Origin: Atopsyche davidsoni | Taxonomy: Eukaryota > Arthropoda > Insecta > Trichoptera > Hydrobiosidae | Direction of reading: 5' to 3' | Assembly (NCBI GenBank): GCA_022113835.1 | Contig: JAILWY010000029.1 | Location: 134,001 to 198,000 of the forward strand | DNA length: 64,000 nt | Shown: one piece after another, positions 1 to 63,960 of the stretch | How the letters are laid out: each line of letters starts with the position of its first letter | Position numbering within the stretch: the first letter of the stretch is position 1 | Notes under the pieces: generated by a model | Database searches by the model: none | Told to the model about the DNA's origin: nothing | What the model saw: the letters and a program-made list of their open reading frames with translations, nothing else | Position numbers and translations under genes: made by a program

Positions 1-3000
1 ATATTTCAATAAATTCAAGAAATTAATGACAAGAAATTTTAAATATGTGAATTTGACGGTGTGCCGACGGTTGAAAACGTTTTTAAATTTGAAACAAAAT
101 AATTCTCATCCAAAAATTAAAAAAAAGCCTTATTTGAAATTGTTTTTTTATTTGTGTCAACTTTGTAATTTTGAATCAAATTTAACTATGGCAGCCGATA
201 ATTTTAAAGGGATTTTTTGTGTTTTTAAATTTGCTTTGCCGAGGCGCATCACTCTCGCGGAAGCCCGATTTTTTTCTAAAGAAAATTAATAAATTATTTT
301 AAAACTTGATCACTAAACTGTAACAAATATTAATTTAAAATAGATACAGTGTAATTAATAAACGGTGTTTAAATAAATTGCGTGCAGTATTTTATTATAA
401 AATGACGCTACGGCCTCCCGCGACGCGACGGCGCACACGGCTTACTTATAAGGTCACGAGGATTGGGTTACTGCGGCGGCTCCGTCCCGCTCGCGCGCCC
501 GCACCCGTCCGTAGCGCTGTCTCGTTCGCGCGCGCGTCCGCCCGCCTGCCGGCCGTCTCGCTCGCGCGCGCGCCCGCCCATAGCGCCGTCCCGCTCGCAC
601 CCGCGCCCGCCCGCCGGCCGTCTCGCTCGCGCGCGCGCTCGCCCATAGCGCCGTCCCGCTCGCGCGCCTGGCCGCCGCCCTCGCGGGCTCGGGCTGATTT
701 GATATTCAATACACTCGGTCGGGGAGCAGTCCCTTTCCTCGGCGCAGTCTCTGCGGGCATCTTGTATCGGAGAAGCGACAAAGAGACTCCCTTTTCTTCG
801 AAGAACATTAGCTTTCGACCGCTTCTGTTGCAATTTAAACGGTCCCCTCATTTGCATGCGTTTCCAAGAGACCCGTCTCGCTGAAACTCATTTTGGGCTG
901 GGTTGTTTTGTCGGTACACATAACGTAATGCTTTCATTGCATTTTGCAGGTTTTTTTTTATAATCCTTTTGTTTGAGATACATTGTAGACTTTTGACAAA
1001 TTAAAATTAAAAAAAATATTTTGTTGATAGTTTTGGTGAAGCAGAATGCAGCAAATGCCTCCTCGAAACGACAAAATGCTAAATATCGTACGTCTGGTAG
1101 TTTTGTAAAGACGCGCTATTTCTTTATGAAAAAGGTGCGATTCAAATTGTTTCATTGAATGGTGAAATTCAATTTTTTTTTCTTTCTTAATGAGTAACCC
1201 AGTTTGATTATGCCAATGGGAAAAGTTGGCTAAATCGGTCACTGATAAAATTTAACAAAAATATTGTAAATTTGTTTTTAAATCAAGTCTTTTCCTCCAA
1301 TCTTGCCTGCTATATACTTATTTACCTAAAGGGAGTATTGATAAAATACGGCCGACGACCCTCGCAACCTTTGTGTACCTAGACACGCCGCGTGTCCACA
1401 TATTTCCATGTAAATTTTTTACATTCTGATAAATGATGAGTTATTTTACCGATTAAAAGCAAGTAAAACCGTTTCAGAAGGAAATTTTCGCTGATACGGG
1501 CTTCCGGAGTTTGCAAGACGAAACTGCTCCCGACCGCCTCCCCTGCCTGCCCCTCTCTCGGGACGCAGTTCTAGACTTCTCATTTTGAGATTATTTGAGT
1601 TTGGGTGTCTCCCACTCATACAATGGGGTACTCTAGAGTCGACACCTGTGCAATCAGGGGTGGCACTGGCGGAGCACAGCCCCGAGTATATTTAGTCCAT
1701 TTATCTGTAATGCGTATTCCTCAACGGAAGCTATTCTCGGACGCCAGAGACTCCCTCGGGCAGCGCAGACTAAGCCACGCGACACGAGAGCGACACGCGC
1801 CTCGTATCCATCCAATATATAGTATATATAATATACTATATTTCTAAATTTTATATTTTTCAAACAAGCATCAACCGATATGTCCCATACTCGAGTGTTT
1901 TTTATCATTTTCTGGTCCGTTTTGCGAAAAATCGACGGCACCAATCAAAAAAATTTAAATGCAAATAGTTAGATACACCCCTTCTTCCGAACAGAATATA
2001 TTTTTATTTCTTGTAAATTTACTTTTAATATGATAAATATGTGTTTTTCCGATTGAAGTGTAGGAATTTGGAGATTCGTCATGTCCCTGTTCTAAGAGTC
2101 CTAAACATTTAAAAGTCTTTTTTTCAATTGAAATTAAAAGATTAAATATAAACCCTGTGCGATTTATTATTTTAAAAATAAAAAAATAAAAAATCTTTAA
2201 CAAACTTTGGTTTTGAAAAGTCATCTTCAAGATTTCATTTTACGCTGAAAATGGTCGTTAATTAAATAATAAAAATAGATAAATATAATTTTTAGTTTTT
2301 TCAATACTCCATAAAAAAATCAACTTTCGACATAAAAATAAAATAAATAAAAATAAAGTGACAATTAAATTAATTAAATGACACGATTTCGCCAGGTAAA
2401 ACGGTACTTTTTTTGTGGCAGACGGGGGATGGACACCAAGCAAGGTTAGGTAGCAAGACCCTTAACCTACAGTCACGCTTCGTCCTATAACGGTTCCCAG
2501 CTCTCCTGGTGCGCGGTTTTTGAGCTCCGAATTCAGTTTGTCAAAGTAAGGATGCCTCTCGTGTTGGGATTCTAACAGTTGCAGTAAGTTTTCTGCCCAA
2601 ACTGGCTGACTGTCTGCTCGCGCGCGTCCGCCTGATCTATTTTCAGTCAGCTGTTTCGGCGCACCTGTTGCAGCGGGCGCGGCAACATCTTTCTTATATT
2701 TCAATGTTGACTAAAAATAGTAAACTACAATCCTTAATTTTTTCTTCAGATTTATGAGTTTTGCCGTGCGTTGCGATAAATCACGTAACAAATATCGACA
2801 ACAGAGACATCGGCAGCTTGTCCGCCGAAGTCTCTGTCTTTGGTCAGGCCCATAGACCTATAGACCGCTGCTTTGAGACGAATAGAGTCTAGAAGCTTTC
2901 GACCCCCCGTGTCGTGTTTGATTGATAAATGAAACAATAAATAACGAGCGGTAGACATACAAACTGGCATTATACGAAAATTAGGAGTGCGCAACTATTT

Positions 3001-7564: not shown

Positions 7565-7775
7565 CACTGGCAATTTTAAAAATATTTTATTTAGTCTTGT
7601 TGAGAGACAAGGCATTTGATTCGTAAAGATCCATTATTATAATGATAAAAGTAACTTTGTATTTTTGTCTCCAGTTGAGTTTAGGTCCGACCCAGTGTAT
7701 CGGGTCGAAACTAGTAATGCAAATAATTTAAATAAACTCAATGTGAAGACAAAAATACAAAGTTAATTTTATTTA
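7565..7775. repeat. second copy of the 31.5-kb fold-back family, degenerate
   Basis: Contains GACAAGGCATTTGATTCGTA, GATCCATTATTATAATGATA, AAAGTAACTTTGTATTTTTG and the mirrored arm GACAAAAATACAAAGTTAAT. The hammerhead-like centre is reduced to a stem II (GACCC/GGGTC), GAAAC and AATGC. The CTGATGA half is lost. Confidence 0.7.
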
Positions 7776-7974
7776 GATTTAAAAAGTTTAATTACTAAAT
7801 GTTAGGTTAGCCACTATTGCTGCAAATTGTTTTAGGTAAATTTGGATGAATCTTTAAAACAGATAATCTGGATTTGAAATCCAAGATGTGATGTGTGTGA
7901 ATTCGCGCAGCAAAGCATTTTTAAACCGCGTATAATTAGCCCCGTATAAATAGCGCCGCCGCCCACTCGCGCGG

Positions 7975-9390: not shown

Positions 9391-9959
9391 TTAAATGTCG
9401 TATATATATATATAATATATTTTAAATTGTTTTGCGAGAAAATCAATCCTATAATGATTTTCATAAATATTAATCCACGGAGACGGACGATGTTTCTGAT
9501 AATCAAAAGAGTACTGCTTTGTTGATAAAGTCTCTTAAAACATTTGGTTCTATTTACTTAAAATAGAGAAGAATTATAAAATAAATACACCAACAATAAA
9601 AAAATTATAATAATTACATTTTCGCCAATCCGAACCAAATCTCTTTGTGCCTTTCTCCAATCAATCGGGATCTCGATATCCGAAACTTTGGTCTAGAAAT
9701 ATTCACGTCGTGTATAAAAAAATAAGGAATGTTCTAGAAAATATAAATATTGGTTAAAAAAAAACACAACAGAGCTCTGCGCGCTCTGCCAGGCCGACGA
9801 CAAATTTTCAATCAACTGTCTGGCTTCTGTGCTCGCCGTCCGCCCGTCTGATCGTCGGCCAGGCGCCCCGCCAGCTCCGACTCATGTAGACTTTTCTACG
9901 TTTATTTTCTGATCGTTAAACTAATTATTCTTAATTATAGACCAATTATTACTATAGTG

Positions 9960-10706
9960 CATTGGTTCCCAAAGTGGTCAATATCGACCCCCAGGGATCG
10001 ATTCCACCCTGCAAGGGGTTGATGACAGCGAAAAATTAAATTGGGGGTCCACGAACTGTAAATGTGGGTCTACGAGAGTGGATCCCATTAACCAGGTCAT
10101 CACCAAAATACTACAGTGAATTATCAATCCATACGGCTACATTGAATAATCCGAAGTCATACTACAAGAAGAACTGATTGAAATAAGCACTAATGAACCA
10201 CTGAAGGTGCAATTTAGAAAGGGATATCACCAATTTTGGCTTCAGAGAGACATACCTGCTATTTATCCTGCATTATGGACTATCGCAGGAAGGTTTTTGA
10301 TAGCTTAACCATCTTCATTCCTAGTGGAAAGGGGTTTCAGTGCGGTTGCCATTCTTCTTACAAAAAAATAAATAGATTGGAAATCACTGGACGAGGAGAT
10401 TTAAAGTTAAATCTGACTTATTTGAAGCCAAATGTTGAAAATTTCCTATCAAAGCATAAGACCCATCCCTCCCATTAAAAGTATTGATTTTTTTATTGAA
10501 TGTTACTATATTTGTATTTAGTGTGTTTTTATTTATAATATTCAGTAAAACCTCGATATAACGGACCCCTGTTTAAAGGATTTCAGATATTACGGACAAA
10601 AAATCAGGTCAAATGTAAAAATTCAATACTAGCAAGGCAGGGGGGTCTACGAAAAACAGGAAAACTCGTCAAGGGGTCAACAGGAGAAAAAGTTTGGGAA
10701 CCTATG
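9960..10706 (+). mobile_element. hAT-type element A with 8-bp target duplication
   Basis: 747 bp bounded by inverted ends CATTGGTTCCCAAA and, at the right, the complement of CATAGGTTCCCAAA. The 8-bp direct repeat CTATAGTG flanks both sides (9952-9959 and 10707-10714), the size typical of hAT elements. The interior keeps a degraded hAT C-terminal (dimerisation) coding segment. It is a close relative of the element at 51095-51791. It is too short to be autonomous. Confidence 0.88.
10160..10478 (+). pseudogene. hAT transposase C-terminal fragment, broken
   Basis: The reading frame of this fragment is the same as in the copy at 51235-51594 but is interrupted: a stop follows DSL/IA near 10307, and frame changes flank it. 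The last third still reads NRLEITGRGDLKLNLTYLKP, a dimerisation-domain motif of ZBED5/Buster-like hAT transposases. No zinc finger or catalytic DDE part is present. Confidence 0.7.
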
Positions 10707-11845
10707 CTATAGTGTATTATTCTGTTCAAGTGGGAGACCGCAAGCGTGTGAAGAAGTAGTAATACAGTTTAAAGCGATTTGCGACTGTGTTCGGATCGGT
10801 TGAATCATGCAGATTTTTTTTTATTAAAGCCAGGAATAATATACAAAATAACAAAAATATTTCATGGAGGTATTTAAAAAGATAAAACAGAGAAGAATTG
10901 AAAAGAGCTTGCGCGTGATTAAAATAAGATTATTCAATCAACTACAGGATGCGCACGGAGTGGCGCAATAAAAGTGGCGAGACAGATGGAATCGGGTTTT
11001 ACGGCTTGGCGGCCGAGAGCGTCACGCCTGCAGGATAATTAGCAGCGCCGCCCCCGCCCACCAGGGCCCCTCTACATCGAAATTATCCATATCATAACAT
11101 CCCATCCAAATGAAAAAGCAAGCTGCTCATTTTCCACCTTTAAGGACTTGGAGGTGATTTCTCAGAAGTTGAGCTGCTTGAAGTTTTCAATCAATCATCG
11201 ACTTTCCTACGGCTTGCCTATTTTCAAGCGCACCTTTCCGAGCCAAATAATAGTCTTGGCCTGTTGATGTTTCTGTGATTTGTGGTCAATCAACCGAATT
11301 GGACAAAAATTGCAAACCTAAAAATATCATTACCACAGTTAACCTGCTCTCATAATATATTATATATTATTACCTTGAAAGTTTTCGTTTAAGTCTCGGT
11401 TCTGAGGCCATCCTCAAATATTCAATCAATAAAGTGGGATCAACCCCTAAACACGCTCCCAGTACCGAGCCCGAAACGCAAGAGCACAGCAATTCCAGTA
11501 ACGAAAACGCCGCCAAAGTACACGAACATATTTAATTGAAAGTAAATAAATACATGGTATTTATCTTCATCTTTAATACGGTTCTGTTTCAGTGAGCGTT
11601 GGACGCGAGAGCTCTGCAGATCCCATCTTAACGGTTTTCACTTAAAAAAATAAAACTATCAAAGAGCTGATCTGTCAAATTAAATTTTAAAATACTCTCC
11701 TGCCAGATGACTTTTCATTGTTTTTTTACGCGTGGGTTCAATTATTTCTTATAATTTTTTAAGCCATTAATTAAGCCAGGGGCTATTTAAGACTATGTCA
11801 GAGATGAGCTCGAGCCTGCACATCTCATTGTACGTTTATAAATAT

Positions 11846-13380: not shown

Positions 13381-13700
13381 TTGTGAAGACCGTCTCACAG
13401 TAAGTACGATTTTTGCCTATACAGGTTTTATTGATTGATAATGATTAAGTATATTTTTTCAAAAATTGAAAAATGATTGAAGAAACTCTCAGAAAAATAT
13501 CATCATGATTTGTGTGGTATTTAAATCCACACCCCCAAGCTTACATGGCCGATGCATTCGTTAGTATAATTGGTATGAACCGGTCATGTAAGCTTGGGGG
13601 TGCGGGTTCAAATCCCACACAAATTACGATGATATTTTTCTGAGAGTTTCTTTAATCATTTTTCAATATTATTTAAAAAATGTACTTAATCATTATCAAT
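13381..13700. repeat. fold-back repeat with mirrored tRNA-like B box
   Basis: Two arms of about 110-120 nt form a long inverted repeat around about 13545-13585. The left arm includes ATTGATAATGATTAAGTA, AAACTCTCAGAAAAATATCA, CCACACCCCCAAGCTTACAT. The right arm is its complement. The right arm reads GGGTTCAAATCCCACAC, a T-arm/B-box-like sequence, preceded by TTAGTATAATTGG (A-box-like). The element is related to the MITE at 58551-58765 and shares its left flank with 20565-20703. Confidence 0.8.
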
Positions 13701-15050: not shown

Positions 15051-15365
15051 ACCGGGATATTTCTGTCAATCCTGAATTCCATCGGCTTCTGACACCGCCG
15101 CAGAAATCATATCGCGCGGTTGTGTAACGCCTGACCCGCTATATCGCGGCTATTGTGTATCACACCTTTTAATTGAAATGCGATTTGAATTCAAAACGCT
15201 GTGATATCACACATATTGAATGCAACATGCTGTAATACACTTTGTATGCAATGCGCTGTGATTAACACCACATTTATTATATGGGACACGATGGAGTATG
15301 CAATATATTATATATATTTTATGCGATATGCTGAAATATCACTTTTTAATATATTACAAATATTT

Positions 15366-15820
15366 TTTTTTAATAAAATACTCGAGTGATTTTCCGCATG
15401 TTCGTTTTTTTATTTGTGACCGGTTTCGCCAACCTTTCACGTTGACATTATCAAGCAGATATAGTAAAAGCAACAATAGATGGCTAAATTCATTAAATTG
15501 AATATATTTTAATTACTTGAATAAACTCATCGCTTCTCTCCGATTCTGACCCTTTGACCGCAAGGTCTTTTAAAAAACTGTCGTAATTGTTTAAGGTTTA
15601 GAAATTTTTGACAGAGAGTACTCGGTGGAATTCCATTTTAATATTTTTTTGAATAAAATACATGATACTCTGAAAATACTCTGTTTGATAATGCCAACGG
15701 GAAAGGTTGGCGAAACTGGTCACAAATAAAAAACGAACATGTGGAAAATCACACGAGTATTTTATTAAAAAAAATATCAAAATGGAATTCCACCAAGTAC
15801 TCTCTGTCAAAAATATTAAA
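15366..15820. repeat. nested fold-back repeat with hammerhead-like remnants
   Basis: The outer palindrome has TTTTCCGCATGTTCGTTTTT and ACCGGTTTCGCCAACCTTTC near 15390-15440, with complements near 15690-15760. An inner or adjacent palindrome has GACAGAGAGTACTCGGTGGA near 15608 and its complement near 15790-15815. Two TTGATAA-T-GCCAAC...GTTGGC-GAAAC segments lie at 15416-15456 (-) and 15682-15724 (+). Confidence 0.75.
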
Positions 15821-16779
15821 ATATACATTATTATTAATAATTAGAGGATTCGCATTTTTTACTCGACAGGCAGATTTATTTTATAAAAAAATAGACATTA
15901 AATACAAATGTTTCAGAAACACGTTAAATATTGAGGATAAAAAAAACACATTTTATTCATTGGCCTCTTCGATACAGCCGTGAGGTGAAAAATACATTTA
16001 TGGCCGGTTAAATTTGTAATACTTCATGTGCACTCGAATATAAAACCAAACCACTTCGAAGAGCAACAAAATATTTTTGTACAAAACGAGATGTCATTAT
16101 ATTTCTCTTAATAATGTGCCAGATTGGAGTGTTTAGTTTTTCCTTTATTAGAAAGCGAATTGTTTTTAGTTGCTTGTCAATAAGATACCGAGTGTCTTGA
16201 GTTCTCTCAGCGCAATGTGTTTAAATATTTCGATTAGGAAAAAAAATATTTTTGTTTCCCCCAAACAAAATGTATTCAGTTATACCTCATAAAAGATCCT
16301 ATTTCTCTCTTGCAACCGAACAGATTATTTTACTAAAAATATGTCTCTTAAAATTAAATTTCGAGATTCTGTATTTCTTTTAGTTAATTTACAATAGTTC
16401 TCGGAGCTAGTCTCACAATACGATGTGTAGCTATCCCCTGATCCTGCGCGCAGGTTGTGGGGCTTACAAGATGTGGCTTAGGTGGTAGTAGTGTAGGAAA
16501 AAAAAAATTATGTGTGAAATAAATTAATTATATGTCTATGCAACTACTAAATGCTTTTAATAAAATAACATTTTTTAAATTCGTCAGAAAAAAATGTAAA
16601 CTCGAGACAACCTGAAAAGCTAAATTTGGAATTCAAAAACACTCGCTGTAGTCGAGCCGAGGGGAAGAGCGAAGATGAAATAGATTTCACCCTCGGCATT
16701 TCAATACTGAATTGGAATATAAACACGGCGGGCACTGAAGCACTTGTTTGTGTATTCTTCAGGTCTGCCTTGCGTCCAG

Positions 16780-19900: not shown

Positions 19901-20564
19901 GTTCGATACAATTCTTCAATCATTTCATAAAAAGGTACACTGTGTGAAACTAATCAGAATAAATTAATTAAATAAAAATACTTTGAATCTAACGTAGTTT
20001 TGGAAGTCAAGGGATGAAATCATCAATAGTACTGTTCAACAAATAAAGTTATAAAAGTTTTTGTCGGTCGCAACGATTAATTAAACCTGGCTAAATAATG
20101 GTTTTCAATACCGAATTCAAATTTAAATTGACTAACAAAAACTCAATGAACAAAAGATAAAAAATAACAAACAATACCAAACACTTTAAACTCCTAATAA
20201 TACTAGGGGAAAAAAAATATTGTGCTAAAACACATCAACTAAAATAGTAAAAATAATGATTAAAAACATTATATTTTAGTGAAAACTATATTTCATATAT
20301 TTTTACTATTCAAATTTATTTAATACTGAATAAGTATTGTACTGGTGTATTATTTTCGAAAATAGACAAAAATCAAATAGATTTCAGGAGTTTTCAAGAA
20401 GTTTAATTTAATAAACAAGTCGATATGCTTTTTTGAAGGAATAAATATAAAAAATAATGACAATATCTTTTAAAATGATGTATGGTTATTGAGTTGAGCA
20501 AACGATTCATGGTATACACAGGTAGTAAAAAAATAATAAATACTTAAAATTATTATTGATTTTT

Positions 20565-20703
20565 TGTGAAGACCGTCTCACAGGAAGTACGATTTTGCCT
20601 ATACAGGTTTTATTGATTGATAATGATTAAGTACATTTTTTCAAATATTGAAAATTGATTATAGAAACTCTTAGAAAAATATCATCGTGATTTGTGTGGG
20701 ATT
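20565..20703 (+). repeat. partial copy of the 13.4-kb fold-back family
   Basis: Shares GTGAAGACCGTCTCACAG, CCTATACAGGTTTTATTGAT and AAAAATATCATCGTGATTTG in the same order as 13381-13520. It stops at the point where the tRNA-like part would begin, so it is one arm only. Confidence 0.75.
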
Positions 20704-23700
20704 AAAAGTATTTTAATGATTTATTAATACATGCCTTTTTCTAAAATTATACATACTATTTATAAATGACAGAATAATTGAACTCATTCCAATACATAAT
20801 ATGATTAGCTCAACGGATGTCAGACAACTTATTGTTTTTTTTGCTGTGATGTTTTACCAGAGCAATATTTTATTTAATGACTTTTCATGGAATTCATTAA
20901 TGTATTTATGAGTACGATCATTTTATTTAAAATGTACTGCGATATATTACTAATAATAAATTAAGCAAACCGTAGTTGTATCTGTGGGTTCCAATTTATT
21001 GTTTCTATTCTTTTCGGCATGCAGCGCTGTTTTCGTATGAATTGCATATTTAAAATATATTTGCTGTATTTTAACTTGATTATTAATTATATATTTATAA
21101 ACACACATTGTTTATTGTGTAAACAATCTGTAATTAGGTTCTCGATACGCTCATGAAACGAAGAGAAAATTTTTCATCACTTTTTTTCGAATCCCAGTAG
21201 TATAACGATGTTTCACATGTAAATCGCCTAAAATCATATCTTGTACGAAATAGATATATACGAGTGGAAAATGCGAATTTATCCAATATTTAGTTTAAAC
21301 CGTTAATTGGAAATCGCAGAGATTTTTGGCTTTTTTTTAATAAACAATGCTTGTATAATTTAAAGTACATTTACGCGTCCAAGAGCTCTCGCCGTCAATG
21401 AAGCATACTGAGCCTCATTTTTATTATTATTAAAAATAAATAAAAATCTAGATATAAAGTATGTTTTCATTCGTTATATACAAGCGAATAAATTTAATTA
21501 TGTTTTAATTTTATATGGAGTAATTGATTTGATATTATTTAAAATTTAAAACTGCTTTATACGTTTTTACAAAATGCCCATATGGTTTGTTTTGATAGAA
21601 TTTATTATTGAATATTTATATGAAAAAGGCAAGTAAATAAAAATGATCTATGACGTTGCTTGAATACCGTGAACGCACAATTAATCGATTTTGGCATATT
21701 TTATTTAAAAAAATCCATAAAATCATATTCAGTTGCATGACACGGGGCTCCAGGTTCGGATCTCGGTGGGGATATATATTTTTAATTTATACAATTAAAA
21801 ATATACATCTCCAATACATTAGTTTAAAACAAGAAATTGTAATTATTATTTTCTTGTTAATCTTAAGAAATGTCTGAACTAAACGAGGATGATGTCGGTT
21901 AAAACTGACAAATATGTTATATAGTAAATGCTATGGAAAATCTGAAAGAAAGATGAAAAGCGTCGGCTATCCCGAGTGTCCGTTTATTTGTTGGAACATC
22001 TTGTAAAGTACGTCATATTGAGTAAGTTACCACCGCTTATCCCCCGTAAGCGTTAAACGTAAAAGCCCTGAAACGTGTCAATGAATGAAGTAGAATATTG
22101 TTTATTCGAGTTGTCCATTACTCCCAAAACATCTTGCTTAGAAAAAGTTAAGGATGTCGGTAATCCCGAGTATCCGTTAGTTGTCGCCAACGTCCGGTAA
22201 ACTTTATTTAGCGCAGGGAATCAGAAGGACGCAAGTTATGTTAGGAAGATGATTGTAACTCTTGCATTGCTCTGACGAGAAGGTCAATCTTCTTCTTCGG
22301 GAACTCCTCCTCGCGAGAGGACGGCGATCATCTCTCTGAACGTATCCATATCTTATCATATCGTATCATATATTTTCTTCAATGAGTAGGCTGTATTTGG
22401 AATTTCGGAAAAGTATCAGGACGTGGTCCGAGTAGCTCCGAGTTGAGAGGCGGGTTGTTTCGGCGGGCGGCGGGCAGCGGTTGTGGGCACAAAGGTGGCG
22501 TGGGCGGCGGCACACATTCTGCCTCGATTAATAAGCGCGGCGTATACACATAAAAGAAGAGAAATCGGAGATAAGCGCGCAGCCCGCGTATTAATAGCCG
22601 CGCGGACGCAAATACCGGCGCCGCGTAACCCGAACCAGTCGCGCGCCGCCAAGCACTCCGCGCACTCCTGCCCTCCTCGCCCTCCTCGCCCTCCTCACGC
22701 TGCACGGAGGCTGCCTTCAATTAAAGAAAGGAAAAAGATATTCCGAATGTTCGGGACTTATCTCCTCCCTCTGATAAAATACCTCGTATTGACTCGGAGA
22801 GTGGGAGTGGCTGCAGCGCCCGCGCCTCGGGTGTGCATCGTATCCGCCGTTTTCCATGACTTCAGGGATTCGGCTTAAATAAACGATGACCATCATTTTG
22901 TGACTTATTAAGTTTTATCGTATAGGTCCAGTATGAACTCCCGCATAGTAGATACTTGTTTCTCAAAAAATCAAAACTTTTTTTCTATTACTCTTCAAGA
23001 GTCACCCAAGAAGAAGACCACCCCCTGTCCCCATCCCCCGGCAGGCTCTATCTCAAACCGATGTGCCACCCGGCCTCATTGACTTCCTCCGCTAGTATCC
23101 TACTAATTAACCGACTGACAAGGAGCAGAAATAGAGTTTTACTGAAATTAGCTAGCTTCCGACCCTCAAACGAACCATAGGAGATGGTAGCTGCGATTCT
23201 GCTAAATTAAAAAAAAACTGAAATAATATTTGCTCTACCCAGAAGCAGATTTAAAAACCTTTGTCGAACAAGCAAGCGAAAATGTGTGATTGCCTAAGCG
23301 CGTGAATGTCTTAGATGTTTTTATTTTCTCATTACTTTTCCTGAATACCGGTTCAATTTTGGCACAGCGACGACATAAAAATTGTCATTTTTTTATTAGA
23401 CGAACACCTGAGTGAATAGGAGGCAGTGATGCAGTTACGTGCTCGTGTCCCCGAGGTCACTCGTTGGTCTCTGTCGTCTTAGAAGGATTTTTTATATGAT
23501 CGGACGTTTTGTATGCTTACTAGATCACGAGATGTTCACATTTGGCACAGTGACGACTTACAAAAAAAGATCGCCTGAGCAGTAAGAGAAAACTATGCAC
23601 TCTCTTGAAATGTTTGCAGACTAGTGACGGTTAAAAAAATTACGAAAAGTGATACACCTTCCTCTTTGTGCTCGTGTTCTTCTCGAGGGTCGCGAAGGCT

Positions 23701-27554: not shown

Positions 27555-27862
27555 ATAGATATAATAAAAGCAATGACAGACGGGTAAATTTATTAAATTT
27601 AATATATTTTAATTACTGGAATAAACTTATCGCTTTTCTCTGATTCTGACACTTTGATCGCAAGGTCTTTTAAAAAACTGTCGTAATTGTTTAATGTTTA
27701 GAAATTTATTATTTTTGACAGAGAGTACTTGGTGGAATTCCATTTTAATATTTTTTGAATAAAATACTTGATACTCTGAAAATACTCTGTTTGATAATGC
27801 CAACGTGAAAGGTTGGCGAAACCGGTCACAAATAATAAACGAACATGTGGAAAATCACTATT
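27555..27862 (+). repeat. second copy of the 15.4-kb repeat
   Basis: Co-linear with 15460-15765: GCAAGGTCTTTTAAAAAACT, GACAGAGAGTACTTGGTGGA, TTGATAATGCCAACGTGAAA and AACGAACATGTGGAAAATCA. It ends next to a poly-A tract (27870-27890). Only one arm is present. Confidence 0.75.
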
Positions 27863-28103: not shown

Positions 28104-28676
28104 GGGTGTCCAAAAAGAGTATCGGGTGAATGTGAATAGTGACCGTTATTGCGATATGCTGTGAAAATTTTTGGGCCCTGAGTTGCAGGAGTTTCAAGGT
28201 TTCAACTCAAGAACGTGCTTCCAACAAGATCACTTGCCATACATCCAATCAATCAATTGAAGCTTTTAACGAATTATTCCCTTATGAGGTCATTTCACGT
28301 AGAGGTAACATCAACTGGCCTCCCAGAAGCTCCGACCTTAGCCCTCTTGACTATTTCGTATGGGGATACCTTAAAAGTAAGGTTTATGAAAATAATCCGA
28401 CGAACCCAACGGAATTGAAACAAAACATCAGGTCAGAAATGGCAGCAATATCGAGGGCTATGCGTCAGCGTGTTATCAACAATCTTCGTTCCAGATTAGT
28501 AGAGTGCCAGCAGCGTAACGGTCACCATTTGGATAACATCATCTTTTTGAAATAATTTTCCATTTTGTCAACATTAAAAAAAAATTCTTATAGTCAACAT
28601 TAAAAAAAAAAACTCGATTACTAGTAGTTTTTGTTTTACCGAACTAACAAATACCCGATACTCTCTTTGGACACCT
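28104..28676 (+). mobile_element. Tc1/mariner-type element, internally deleted
   Basis: 573 bp with inverted ends GGGTGTCCAAAAAGAGTATC and, as complement of the right end, AGGTGTCCAAAGAGAGTATC (22 of 24 nt match over the full arm). TA lies on both sides (28102-28103 and 28677-28678), the target duplication of this superfamily. A full element would be about twice as long. Only the C-terminal transposase part remains. Confidence 0.88.
28139..28555 (+). pseudogene. mariner-like transposase C-terminal fragment, frameshifted
   Basis: The open frame carries HTSNQSIEAFNELFP, NWPPRSSDLSPLDYFVWGYL and a tail QQRNGHHLDNIIF. PPRSxDLSPLDY(F/L)xWGxLK contains the third catalytic Asp of mariner-type DDE transposases. 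The preceding QQD motif is encoded just upstream in another frame (around 28218-28232), so a small deletion has shifted the frame there. The N-terminal DNA-binding part and first Asp are gone. Confidence 0.82.
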
Positions 28677-31531
28677 TATTTTATATATATAATCAATTTC
28701 ACTTTCGTGCGTTGAAGTTCATATTTATTTAGAATTTTGGCAAGTGCGCTCGAGTTGGACAGCTATACAAATTGCCAGAGCATTAGTGCGGGGGTATTTT
28801 CATGAGTCTATGAAACAAGCGGGGCGTGGCTTCACGCCCTGATATAGCATTTGGATTACAAAAACTGCAACACAAGTTCACATGAGCTGGTGGCCGTTGA
28901 AGGTGGACACCATCGCATTAAAAGCCAGCAACATCGAAGTTTGATTGCCGCACTAACATGTTAACTTCAGTTTTAGTCCCATTTGTAAGTAGTAGACTTC
29001 TCAATTTTTTAAGCTTATTTTTTATTAAAGTAAATACAAATAAAATAATCATCATCAGGGTGACTGGATACAAGCGAGTGCATGGATATTGCTGATGCTC
29101 AGCTCAGCCAACAAAAGCCGAGCACTTTGTAGATACAGGTCACACATTTAATTTATTAAGTCCAATGTTTTTTTAAATGAACATAAACATTATTGTACAT
29201 CAAGTCACAGAAGCAAACAAAATATATTAACCTTCTAAAATGATCAATATAGTCGATGGGTTGAAGTTGAAAACTTGCTGTAGGCTCTACTCGCGCTCGG
29301 AGAGGTGCATTCCTTGAAAATGGCTCGATCAGACACAAAACTTTAGAACATTAATAAAAATTTGATGCAGCTAACTATTTATTTGTAAATGTTTATTGCA
29401 TTACAAATAAGACCCGAATGTGCGATTTTTTCGATACTGATGCAAGTAAGTGGTTGGGCGTTATGTTGGTATTATTTCTTTACAAGCCATGGTCGGAAGG
29501 CGCACTAAAACAGAAAAACTATGGAATTCGTGTTTAGTTTATGGATCATTTTCCACCACGCGTACAATAAATTATAGTAAACGGAATAATAATAATAGCA
29601 TGTCGGAAACCATGGAAAATTGTCGGCTTGATTTGCCGCAACCTGCACTGCGCTACGTGCCTGATGTTGCCTATGGCAAAGCTTTGTTTCCTTTTAGAGC
29701 TTTCATTTTTATTTACAAACTACAAAATATATATAATATCGCTATTTACAGTACAATCCAAGAAAAGAATATTGAGTGATATATTAATGCTTATAAATTG
29801 TAAAAACTTTGTAGCATTGATTGGATTTTTATATTAAATAATACCACATATAAATATTTCCCAATGACAGTATATGGTCGCAGTAAAAGTAAAAGTTCTT
29901 CTTTCCCATATAATCACATTTAAAAACTTACGTCCGATAGTGAAAAGACAAAAGCGTATTTTTAGTTATCCCGTGAATCATTCTGTCAAATTATATTTTA
30001 TGAAACATTACACAATAAATATCTATGCAATTGTTCATTTCAGTGCCAAGCTACTTAACAAGGATGTTTGCAAAGTTCACCTCTTCTGACGCTTCAACAA
30101 GATATTCGATTCACGTTGTTTGTGATTAACAAATGCAATGTATTTCCGGTTGAAAGAACGAAAAACATATATAGACTGAATATCATTCGCGTGCTGTTCA
30201 TTCATTCTGAACAGAAATAATCCTCCTCAACAATGAGCCAAGAATTCCATGACACTTTGGCCAAAATTAGCATCCGTTCTATAATTTGGTGACCAAAAAA
30301 GAATCGCCTAGAAAAAAACGACATGAGTCACTCGGTTATATTTAAACCTATTGATGCTTTGATTTTAAATAAATAAAACATAAAAATTATATGTTAAGTA
30401 TAAGAAAATCAAAGAATATCAGTATCTATTCAATTATTGTTCCTTCTTTTAGAACTATGGGGGAAATTTATATTGAAGCAAATGTTGAGTTACTATGATA
30501 AGAATGAAACTTAAAGCTAAGCAACTAGCATATTCGCTTACTAAATAAGAGGTTACTGGTTCGAATACCGGAAAAGCTACCAAGCAATCAAGATAGAAAA
30601 CCCTGGCAGCATTGGATGGAGATGCAAAAATTAGTTAGTAATGTAACGTAAAATGGAAAAAAATAGACGGATTGATCTGAACACTGCTGCAATTGCTTTC
30701 CATGCTTATCTATCTATCAACCCCCTTACGATCTCCCATACTTACAGAAAAGTCTTGTTTAGTCACTTAGCGAAAGCTGTTAAATAGTTCAAATCAGTCA
30801 AAAGTTAATCGTTTTTTTTATTTAAGTTAAATCGATTGATTATTTCAATACGCCGAGTGAGCCCATCACTACTGCGTTCACGTGAAAGTGTTGACGAGCG
30901 TGAGTGTGCGTGAAAGAGTAAAAACAAGAGTTGCATCTCCGGGCAAACAAATACTTGAGCTGTGACGTCTCCTCGCACAGCTGTTCATCTGCTAATCTTA
31001 CATCACCATATACTTTACACCTGTTATTATAACTCATTTTTTCAATTTACACTCAATTAAACACCGAAAATCAAAGCTAACACGTACGAAGAGCCAAATG
31101 ACAAGAAATTTTCTAAACATAAAATTAATTTATTGTTAAGTGGGTTTTCACTTTTCGAGGGCATCGCCAGACAAAAGGAAGCATTTCGTGCTGAAATAAA
31201 TATGCAGTATATTTTAAGATAATTGATTCACGTATGAAACGTTGAGGTGAGCACGTCGAACAAAAAAATATTGCTATCGATAAAGGTTGGGTTCAAATTC
31301 ACACTATCGCAGCCTGCTGATTTAACTAATTTAGTCACCTGTCACCAAAGAAAATATGAACTGTTACATACAACTCGGAACTGGTGTTCTCGGGCTACGA
31401 GGCAAACACACGGGAATCGTAATGCTCTTGACCTATAGAGAGTCTCGGCAGGACATTTACGAGTATATATTTATATATAATGATAAAAGTAACTTTGTAT
31501 TCTATCTTCACTTTGAGTTTATTATAATTTT

Positions 31532-31577
31532 TTCATGACTAGTTTCGATCAATTAGACTAGGTCATCATCAGATGCA
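31532..31577 (-). ncRNA. second hammerhead-like motif, opposite strand, weaker
   Basis: On the minus strand: TGCAT, CTGATGA, T, a stem II with two mismatches (GACCTA against TGATC-side changes), GAAA, C-TA-G, TC, then ATGAA. The core is intact, but stem II and stem I (3 pairs) are damaged. It sits head to head with the + strand motif as the other arm of the palindrome. Confidence 0.4.
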
Positions 31578-31596
31578 CAACTAAACAGTTTAATTA

Positions 31597-31642
31597 TGCA
31601 TCTGATGATGACCTAGTCTATTAGGTCGAAACGAGTCATGCA
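31597..31642 (+). ncRNA. candidate hammerhead ribozyme (type I, minimal stem III)
   Basis: In order: stem I strand TGCAT (31597-31601); core CTGATGA (31602-31608); one extra T (31609); stem II GACCTA (31610-31615), a 6-nt loop and TAGGTC (31622-31627); GAAA (31628-31631); stem III A-C/G-T with a 2-nt GA loop; GTC ending at 31637 as the predicted cleavage site; and stem I strand ATGCA (31638-31642), complementary to the first. All nucleotides of the conserved core are present. Very short stem III is known in hammerheads of Penelope-like elements and retrozymes. An extra nucleotide after A9 has precedent in natural hammerheads. Activity is inferred, not shown. Confidence 0.6.
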
Positions 31643-32204
31643 AAAAATATAATAAACTCAAAGGGAAGACAGAATACAAAGTTACTTTTATCTTTATAAT
31701 AATGGATCTTCACCAATCAAATGCCTCGTCCCTCGACAAGAGTATAAATTTAAAAGCTTATTTTACTTAGCGAAGACGCAAACCGAAGTTTTAAGAAAGT
31801 CTTTTTCCACTCAAAACAATGAGCGAAAACGTCGAAAATTGAGACGCGACCCTGAGGAGGATTTGCAAACAGCACTAGTATTTTACTGTCGTTTGATTAT
31901 AGATTACAACGATTCGATTTCTCGTCCGATTGGAGGTCGACAGCGGCACAATCGGTTGCGGTTCGAGTCCAGTTGCGTCAAAATATTTTATAACCCAGAG
32001 CCGCATCGAAAGCGCAATAGATCGACGTGCGGGAAAGGTGATGATTTGTTCAAGATATTGAGCGAGGATCACAAGTCGGGATCGCTCGTCGCCGATTCCC
32101 ACGCAGCGGCCGGGGGCGGCGCCTCCCACGCGCGCCACAAAACCGCGGGCCGCGGCCGCCGCCAGCCCAGTCGGCCCGAGAGCATCGACCACGACCGACC
32201 GAGC

Positions 32205-36939: not shown

Positions 36940-37655
36940 ACAATGACAGACAAAATAATTGACGGATAAAATAATAGGTCACCAAACAATTGATTGATAA
37001 AATAATTGGTCAACAAAAAATTGTCCGATGAAGTAATTGGCCACCAAAAAAATGTCAGAAAAAAAAATCGGTCACAAAATAATTGACCGATTAATATTGC
37101 CAAAAAAGTTTGGTCACAAAAAAATGTGACTTATAATTTTAGGTCACAAAAAAATTAACTGATAATTATTGTTACTAATATGATTAGGCACATAAGTTCA
37201 TACATATAAGATGATTTAAAGAAACTCTCAGAAAAATATCATCGTGATTTGTGTGGGATATCATATTAGTAAAAGTAATAATAAATAACTAAATTAGTAA
37301 TAATATAACAAACCCGTAATGGGCAATAAATACGCATCTGATTGACGTCCAATCCAAAAAATAGACATTCAATAATTATTCCTCGCAAAAAAATTTACCA
37401 ATTATTATTGGTCACAAAAAAGTTGATTATTAGTAAAAAAAATAGTTGACCGATAAATTATAGGCCACAAAAAAGTTGACCGATAATTTTAAGTCACCAA
37501 AAAGTCGACAGATAAATTATTGGTCACAAAAAAATTGACCGATTATTATTAGTCGAAAAAAAGTTGACCAATTGGTCACAAATAATTTTACCGATAAATT
37601 TTTGGTAACAAAAAAGTTTACCGAAAATTTATTGGTAAAAAAAAAGTTGACCGGA
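36940..37655. repeat. degenerate tandem array, about 30-bp palindromic units
   Basis: Repeated clause of the form GGTCACAAAAAAGTTGACCG followed by ATAATTATT, with variation. Each unit contains its own 5-bp inverted pair GGTCA/TGACC. The array lies wholly inside the hAT-type element and is split by a MITE at 37175-37269. Confidence 0.8.
37175..37269. mobile_element. short MITE copy (TA-flanked) lacking the tRNA-like core
   Basis: Starts CTAATATGATTAGGCAC after TA and ends ATCATATTAG before TA. The interior has the shared clause AACTCTCAGAAAAATATCAT followed by TTTGTGTGGGAT. It has the same termini as the element at 58551-58765 but only 95 bp, with the tRNA-like part and right arm deleted. It is inserted in the minisatellite of the surrounding hAT-type element, so it is younger than that array. 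Confidence 0.75.

Positions 37656-45720: not shown

Positions 45721-63960
<18,240 letters not shown>

Follow-up and report, generated by a model that had tools for sequence, protein, structure and literature searches.

Minimal type I hammerhead ribozymes of Penelope-like elements were reportedly described by Cervera and de la Pena in 2014 and by Lunse, Weinberg and Breaker in 2017. Penelope-like elements are reported to carry conserved minimal type I hammerheads without helix III (PMC7761336, PMC6155905), and for cleavage as a dimer the stem III loop must be palindromic and, in eukaryotes, the motifs arranged in tandem (PMC6466107). The role of these motifs was still called "still a mystery" in 2020 (PMC7761336). 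Penelope insertions of Adineta vaga contain inverted pLTRs, mostly head to head and with palindromic junctions; duplications of 8–10 bp accompany three of the described insertions and none of the others, and a 31-bp tail is present on one inverted pLTR (PMC3846280). The element PAc (Poseidon, Anolis carolinensis) cuts and extends both strands of its target, prefers AT-rich DNA and begins reverse transcription inside the RNA at two sites bounding a 30–40-bp tail, and its ORF begins at stem II of the hammerhead (PMC11167929).

We analyzed a 64,000-nt stretch of an Atopsyche davidsoni contig (JAILWY010000029.1, positions 134,001 to 198,000; hereafter, the window), in which a small insertion, A1, resembles these systems (Table 1). 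A1 is probably an old, dead insertion made of two pLTR heads of a Penelope-like element, placed head to head and each carrying a minimal type I hammerhead. Its inverted repeat is longer than a first-pass annotation of the same DNA had stated, with arms of 111 nt that are 90% complementary and separated by 1 nt. With A9 taken as +1, the end of the short arm falls at +93 and that of the long arm at +132; the two arm ends (31700 vs 31739) lie 39 bp apart, leaving an unpaired tail of 39–41 bp. The duplications that flank A1 are identical at 12 of 13 positions, and 12 of 2000 placements drawn at random across the window gave equally good flank repeats of the same size, a control applied to direct repeats of A1 and A2 that had been picked by eye beforehand. 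An open frame (31612–31767) extends from stem II through the A1 tail and has a matching frame in A2, the second family A copy. From an internal ATG at 31702, 13 codons lead to the end of the insertion in both copies; by our reading of the A1–A2 alignment, four of the five base differences in this frame alter the amino acid, and the alignment gave no sign of coding constraint there.

Table 1 Positions of insertion A1, its hammerhead motifs and the related copies within the 64,000-nt window
Feature	Position	Strand	Description
Whole insertion A1	31474..31739	+	266 bp; head-to-head inverted repeat with unequal ends
Left target site duplication, GAGTATATATTTA	31461..31473	.	11-13 bp; the first GA may be element sequence
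Right target site duplication, GAGTATAAATTTA	31740..31752	.	
A1 short arm	31476..31586	-	Outward-reading on the minus strand; about 57 nt besides the hammerhead copy
A1 right arm, inverted-repeat part	31588..31698	+	
Damaged hammerhead copy, A1 left arm (A1L)	31532..31577	-	Core complete; palindromic stem III ACTAGT kept
A1 tail	31699..31739	+	End of the longer arm, missing from the short arm; common to A2
Type I hammerhead motif, A1 right arm (A1R)	31597..31642	+	Stem I 5 bp, stem II 6 bp, stem III 2 bp; extra T31609
Stem I, A1 right arm	31597-31601; 31638-31642		5' strand TGCAT; 3' strand ATGCA
CTGATGA and following T, A1 right arm	31602-31608; 31609		T unpaired, between A9 and stem II
Stem II, A1 right arm	31610-31615; 31622-31627		GACCTA x TAGGTC; 6 bp, loop GTCTAT
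GAAA and C17, A1 right arm	31628-31631; 31637		Predicted cleavage after C31637
Stem III, A1 right arm	A31631-T31636; C31632-G31635		Loop GA
Second family A copy A2	7595..7765	-	Inverted arms; about 7592-7783 in the window self-comparison
A2 hammerhead remnant	7676..7721	+	Stem II GACCC/GGGTC; GAAAC-TA-GTA; 5' core lost
Family B motif B1L	15413..15459	-	Left arm of inverted pair B1; base of stem I unpaired
Family B motif B1R	15680..15726	+	Right arm of B1; core TTGATAA, extra T, stem I 3 bp
Family B motif B2	27786..27832	+	Single copy; stem III palindrome ACCGGT, stem I 3 bp
Family B motif B3	1199..1245	+	Degraded; core TTGATTA, TAAA in place of GAAA

The right arm of A1 shows the type I arrangement: a CUGANGA and GAAA core is present, stems I, II and III follow one another in sequence, and U-H precedes the cleavage site. 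Each segment that the first-pass annotation had listed for this motif lies at the position, and in the order and spacing, that it gave, and the damaged mirror copy that it had reported from the opposite strand is found in the left arm. There, 5 of the 46 positions differ from the right-arm motif; these changes break two pairs of stem II and one of stem I, and none of the 12 core positions (CTGATGA, GAAA and C17) is changed. The term "intact" says too much of the right-arm motif, because the loop segment CGAG of its stem III looks like a change derived from the palindrome CTAG, which is retained in the A1 left arm and in A2. The 8-nt stem III segment of the right arm has a predicted duplex energy of -2.0 kcal/mol vs -6.2 kcal/mol for the ACUAGU form, and the modelled stems I and II together reach only -9.6 kcal/mol. 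Taken by itself, the 46-nt RNA has no exceptional stability (z -1.71; 12 of 200 shuffles reach an equally good fold). The folding program, which cannot represent a stem III loop of 2 nt, computes a best fold in which C3 and U4 are bound by the stem III segment and the extra U by G12, so that the core is not open. Computed dimer folds were left unused because other palindromes dominated them.

To judge how readily this layout arises, a descriptor of the canonical core with at most one insertion was run on the window, where it matched once, and on 300 random order-1 64-kb single strands, none of which matched. A descriptor that also allowed U3-A8 matched the window four times, with stem I lengths of 5, 3, 3 and 0 bp, and matched none of 400 random strands. 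A chance origin of the A1 hammerhead layout is very unlikely. The covariance-model check that the first-pass annotation had proposed gave no significant Rfam hammerhead score: the 73-nt stretch with the right-arm motif reached 14.7 bits (E 0.31) against a cut-off of 34, and the left arm reached 10.9 bits. At gathering level, Rfam returned tRNA only and no hammerhead from the whole window. Hammerhead rows were likewise absent from a scan of 601 nt at E<=10, which gave many microRNA-precursor rows, all under their gathering scores and reflecting only the long hairpin. Rfam was not given the final say, since the type I consensus of its model lacks an insertion after A9 and includes a longer stem III. 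Exact pattern scans of viral, bacterial and archaeal contig collections produced no matches, a result given little weight in view of these record types.

Related copies elsewhere in the window fall into two families. The family A copy A2 is flanked by an exact 11-bp target duplication, ATTTTATTTAG, at 7584–7594 and 7766–7776 (equally good in 2 of 2000 random placements in the window). The longer arms of A1 and A2 stop at the same point within 2 nt. The short arm of A2 ends near +77 in A1 numbering, about 55 bp before the long end, an estimate that is uncertain because the duplication overlaps similar element sequence. Pair 5 of stem II is T-A in A1 (GACCTA/TAGGTC) and C-G in A2, with both sides changed. 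Family B has a different stem II (GCCAAC/GTTGGC) and the same overall layout as family A, including the T after A9. In three of the four family B copies (B1R, B1L and B2) C3-G8 is replaced by U3-A8; stem I has 3 bp in B1R and B2 and 0 bp in B1L. The stem III hexamer is self-complementary in four of the seven motifs (ACTAGT in A1L and A2, ACCGGT in B1L and B2), and the palindrome is lost in A1R, B1R and B3. No convincing target duplication was found flanking B1 and B2. The family B element at 15364–15821 consists of nested inverted repeats, i.e., the hammerhead pair plus 15597–15661 with 15757–15821 around the right hammerhead; the B2 element (27557–27858) is single-armed and 91% identical over 303 bp.

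The window also holds repeats and frames of other kinds. An inverted repeat at 13434–13700 (267 bp, 85%), with a tRNA-like GGGTTCAAATCC box in its arm, has copies at 20551–20707, 37169–37259 and 58556–58690. These copies overlap a tRNA-Thr call by ARAGORN and Rfam (58620–58693), which may therefore mark the head of a tRNA-derived SINE and not a tRNA gene. A direct repeat of about 770 bp (9949–10712 and 51084–51797) is 83% identical between its copies. The frame at 28136–28555 had no Pfam match at E 0.01; we take it to resemble the C terminus of a mariner transposase. At 60997–61680 and 63111–63599 lie frames of an Ig-domain (I-set) protein, possibly a muscle protein such as twitchin or projectin; among the best 120 of 171 matches of the first frame, the two with a species name are the Timema relatives P0023 (57% identity) and P0035 (73%), and others without a name are closer.

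The two hammerhead families recognize each other in covariance models, with E-values that are rough because calibration was short. The model built from three family B copies alone matched the right arm of A1 at 26.8 bits (E 3.2e-5), the left arm at 20.6 bits (E 0.0018) and B3 at 41.3 bits (E 2.4e-9), with 12.7 bits for its best match of no known relation; A2 is absent from its matches at E<=10. Conversely, the model from the two A1 arms alone matched B2 at 27.5 bits (E 1.6e-5), B1R at 26.8 bits, B1L at 19.2 bits and A2 at 22.6 bits (E 0.00044), with 13.1 bits for its best unrelated match and only 8.8 bits (E 5.2) for B3. Pair counts over six motifs, with B3 left out, were compared with 500 shuffles. 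In this alignment, 88.1% of 84 cells are paired, 16 cells are changed on both sides and covariation is 0.50 (shuffled mean 0.198; 0.038–0.133 in slid registers), all three values being reached by none of the 500 shuffles. The number of pairs changed on both sides (7 of 14; 51 of 500 shuffles as high) and of further pair types (10; 171 of 500) did not exceed the shuffles. Paired positions are thus conserved across copies, as the first-pass annotation had expected of a genuine hammerhead, in three of five measures, with the reservation that the compensatory signal is mostly one split between families A and B, representing few independent events, and that the shuffles ignore relatedness.

The extra T after A9 occurs in all six motifs with a readable core, and its presence in both families shows that it is old and not a product of local decay. 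The extra core A of a viroid hammerhead presumably also follows A9. That motif is natural (PMC3705267); insertions at other core positions are known as well, one of which, after A6, cuts poorly, and the swap of U3-A8 for C3-G8 occurs naturally and is active in vitro in other hammerheads (PMC3088659). In A1 and in family B, the extra T completes an ATG with A9 and the first G of stem II, at a position where A2, whose 5' core is lost, has CAG. The frame from this ATG is open for 12 codons in B1R and, by our reading of the sequence, closed by TGA in loop II in B1L and B2. In A1, in contrast to PAc (PMC11167929), the frame from ATG 31608 (ATG ACC TAG) stops after two codons, and the overlap of core and start codon is therefore only a lead.

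Several features of these copies correspond to Penelope-like elements, and we infer Penelope parentage of A1. The motifs here share with Penelope-like minimal hammerheads the type I order, a near-absent stem III, dispersal outside evident genes and, in four of seven motifs, a self-complementary ACNNGT; as those hammerheads are described in PMC7761336, PMC6155905 and PMC6466107, ours appear to differ in the extra T of both families and in the U3-A8 pair of family B. Both A copies sit at an AT-rich site between target duplications, whose length varies, and have inverted terminal repeats with an optional tail; the tail length (39–41 bp in A1, about 55 bp in A2) accords with 30–40 bp for A1 only. 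The tandem hammerheads of Penelope-like elements are not found, adjacent copies being inverted, and neither reverse transcriptase nor GIY-YIG was matched in the 10 ORFs scanned of the 26 long ORFs in the window. As in Adineta vaga, A1 combines head-to-head inverted repeats, a palindromic junction, a target duplication and a short tail on one arm, even though it consists only of repeat head and tail, 266 bp in total, with no ORF between (PMC3846280); a search of that paper gave no occurrence of the word "hammerhead". The palindromic arrangement, which the first-pass annotation had regarded as unusual, is typical of the Penelope-like group, the most likely family, in which head-to-head inverted pLTRs with palindromic junctions are described (PMC3846280). 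Like PAc, A1 has its hammerhead where the ORF region begins, an AT-rich target and two putative start sites of reverse transcription with a 30–40-bp tail between them; PAc starts 111–118 bp into its ORF, compared to A1 ends at +93 and +132 from A9 (PMC11167929).

Descent of A1 from a self-cleaving retroelement unit, as first proposed, is well supported by its sequence, given the target duplications of A1 and A2, a second family with the same fold, reciprocal model matches and compensatory changes. The other half of the proposal, that A1 is such a unit today, finds no support at this locus: both arms are damaged, they lie on opposite strands, and the stability of the hairpin (-128.7 kcal/mol for RNA 31470–31700 vs -35.06 for the mean of shuffled sequences) far exceeds that of the ribozyme stems. 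Because the arms lie on opposite strands, a dimeric (tandem) hammerhead is impossible within one transcript, and each transcript has one sense hammerhead that is complementary to the other arm. The A1 ribozyme is probably silent at this locus, a fossil that would be buried in a hairpin.

Other origins have to be weighed against this reading. That the resemblance arose by chance within a palindrome would fit the insignificant Rfam score and the unexceptional stability of the 46-nt fold, but no random strand matched either descriptor and the models of families A and B match reciprocally, so that we give this explanation almost no weight. A fold-back or MITE-type DNA transposon, in which the hammerhead layout is a by-product of terminal inverted repeats, would account for a near-perfect 111-nt inverted repeat flanked by direct repeats, and MITEs are common in insects. 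Such an origin is nevertheless improbable because the ends are unequal (the last 39–41 bp of the A1 long arm are unpartnered, and the A2 long arm is likewise longer), pairing of the core, stem II and stem III takes place inside a single arm, something that inverted repeats have no need of, and this layout recurs in a second family whose stem II is different. An animal retrozyme, i.e., a tandem repeat that bears type I hammerheads, is non-autonomous and is propagated through small circular RNAs, seems quite improbable. Like the animal non-LTR retrozymes of PMC7229834, A1 combines a type I hammerhead with a short repeat unit in which no gene is evident, and the same paper reports retrozyme-like repeats from insects, among others. 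However, neighbouring units at A1, A2 and B1 stand in inverted, not head-to-tail, orientation, the self-comparison of the window shows no head-to-tail neighbour of about 150–300 bp at A1 or A2, and minimal stem III, as seen here, is assigned in PMC7229834 and PMC7761336 to PLEs and Terminons and not to the canonical retrozyme form.

A different question is whether the family is correctly identified but its fold was kept for a role other than cleavage, e.g., recognition of the RNA or a DNA end by a protein, with versions carrying the extra U unable to cut. We consider this possible, if on the unlikely side. Every motif whose core can be read has the extra T, the 46-nt RNA has a computed best fold other than that of a hammerhead, and an insertion after A6 reduces activity in another hammerhead (PMC3088659); in PAc, moreover, cleavage depended on the protein, insertion in vitro could do without it, and reads ending at the cut site were not found in vivo (PMC11167929). 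On the other hand, the PAc paper mentions that PLE hammerheads had earlier been seen to cleave themselves at 3–25 mM magnesium, a natural viroid hammerhead has an extra core A (PMC3705267), and the core is unchanged between the A1 arms. The U3-A8 pair of B1R, B1L and B2, a paired swap that is active in vitro in other hammerheads (PMC3088659), is what would be expected if catalysis was selected.

If A1 is composed of two pLTR heads of a Penelope-like element, its structure could be explained by a template RNA, uncut or religated at the hammerhead, that was reverse transcribed into a nicked AT-rich site, synthesis having begun internally on the RNA from either of two tail positions. Either two cDNAs (one per target strand) or one folded-back cDNA would then join the 5' ends of the arms centrally, so that the tails face the target. 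The predicted cleavage site is crossed by unbroken sequence in the five best-preserved motifs (A1R, A1L, B1R, B1L and B2), which suggests uncut or religated RNA as the template. Each A2 arm outruns the other on one side, and arm lengths of this kind would favour two cDNAs over self-priming of one, even though a later central deletion would also fit. Cleavage of tandem transcripts, most effective in a dimer formed via the self-complementary stem III, is probably what the hammerhead was selected for in the parent element. While the layout, the copies, the target duplications and the unequal ends can be read from the sequence directly, the priming route and cleavage in the parent are steps that we infer. 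A more specific joint reading strikes us as doubtful: the extra U would be a fixed design, the overlap of core and AUG would couple self-cleavage to translation start, and the head-to-head copies would be products of two-strand-primed reverse transcription, each begun at one of the tail sites and meeting at the 5' end of uncleaved RNA.

Minimal hammerheads in Penelope-type retroelements are already known, and A1 is a clear, fairly ordinary example of them. The window adds to these motifs two families with an extra core U, one of which has a natural U3-A8 swap. Small two-armed insertions with target duplications preserve both ends and the joint of an insertion event, and, collected across a whole genome, they could reveal the starting points of reverse transcription and whether the template RNA is cleaved before insertion.
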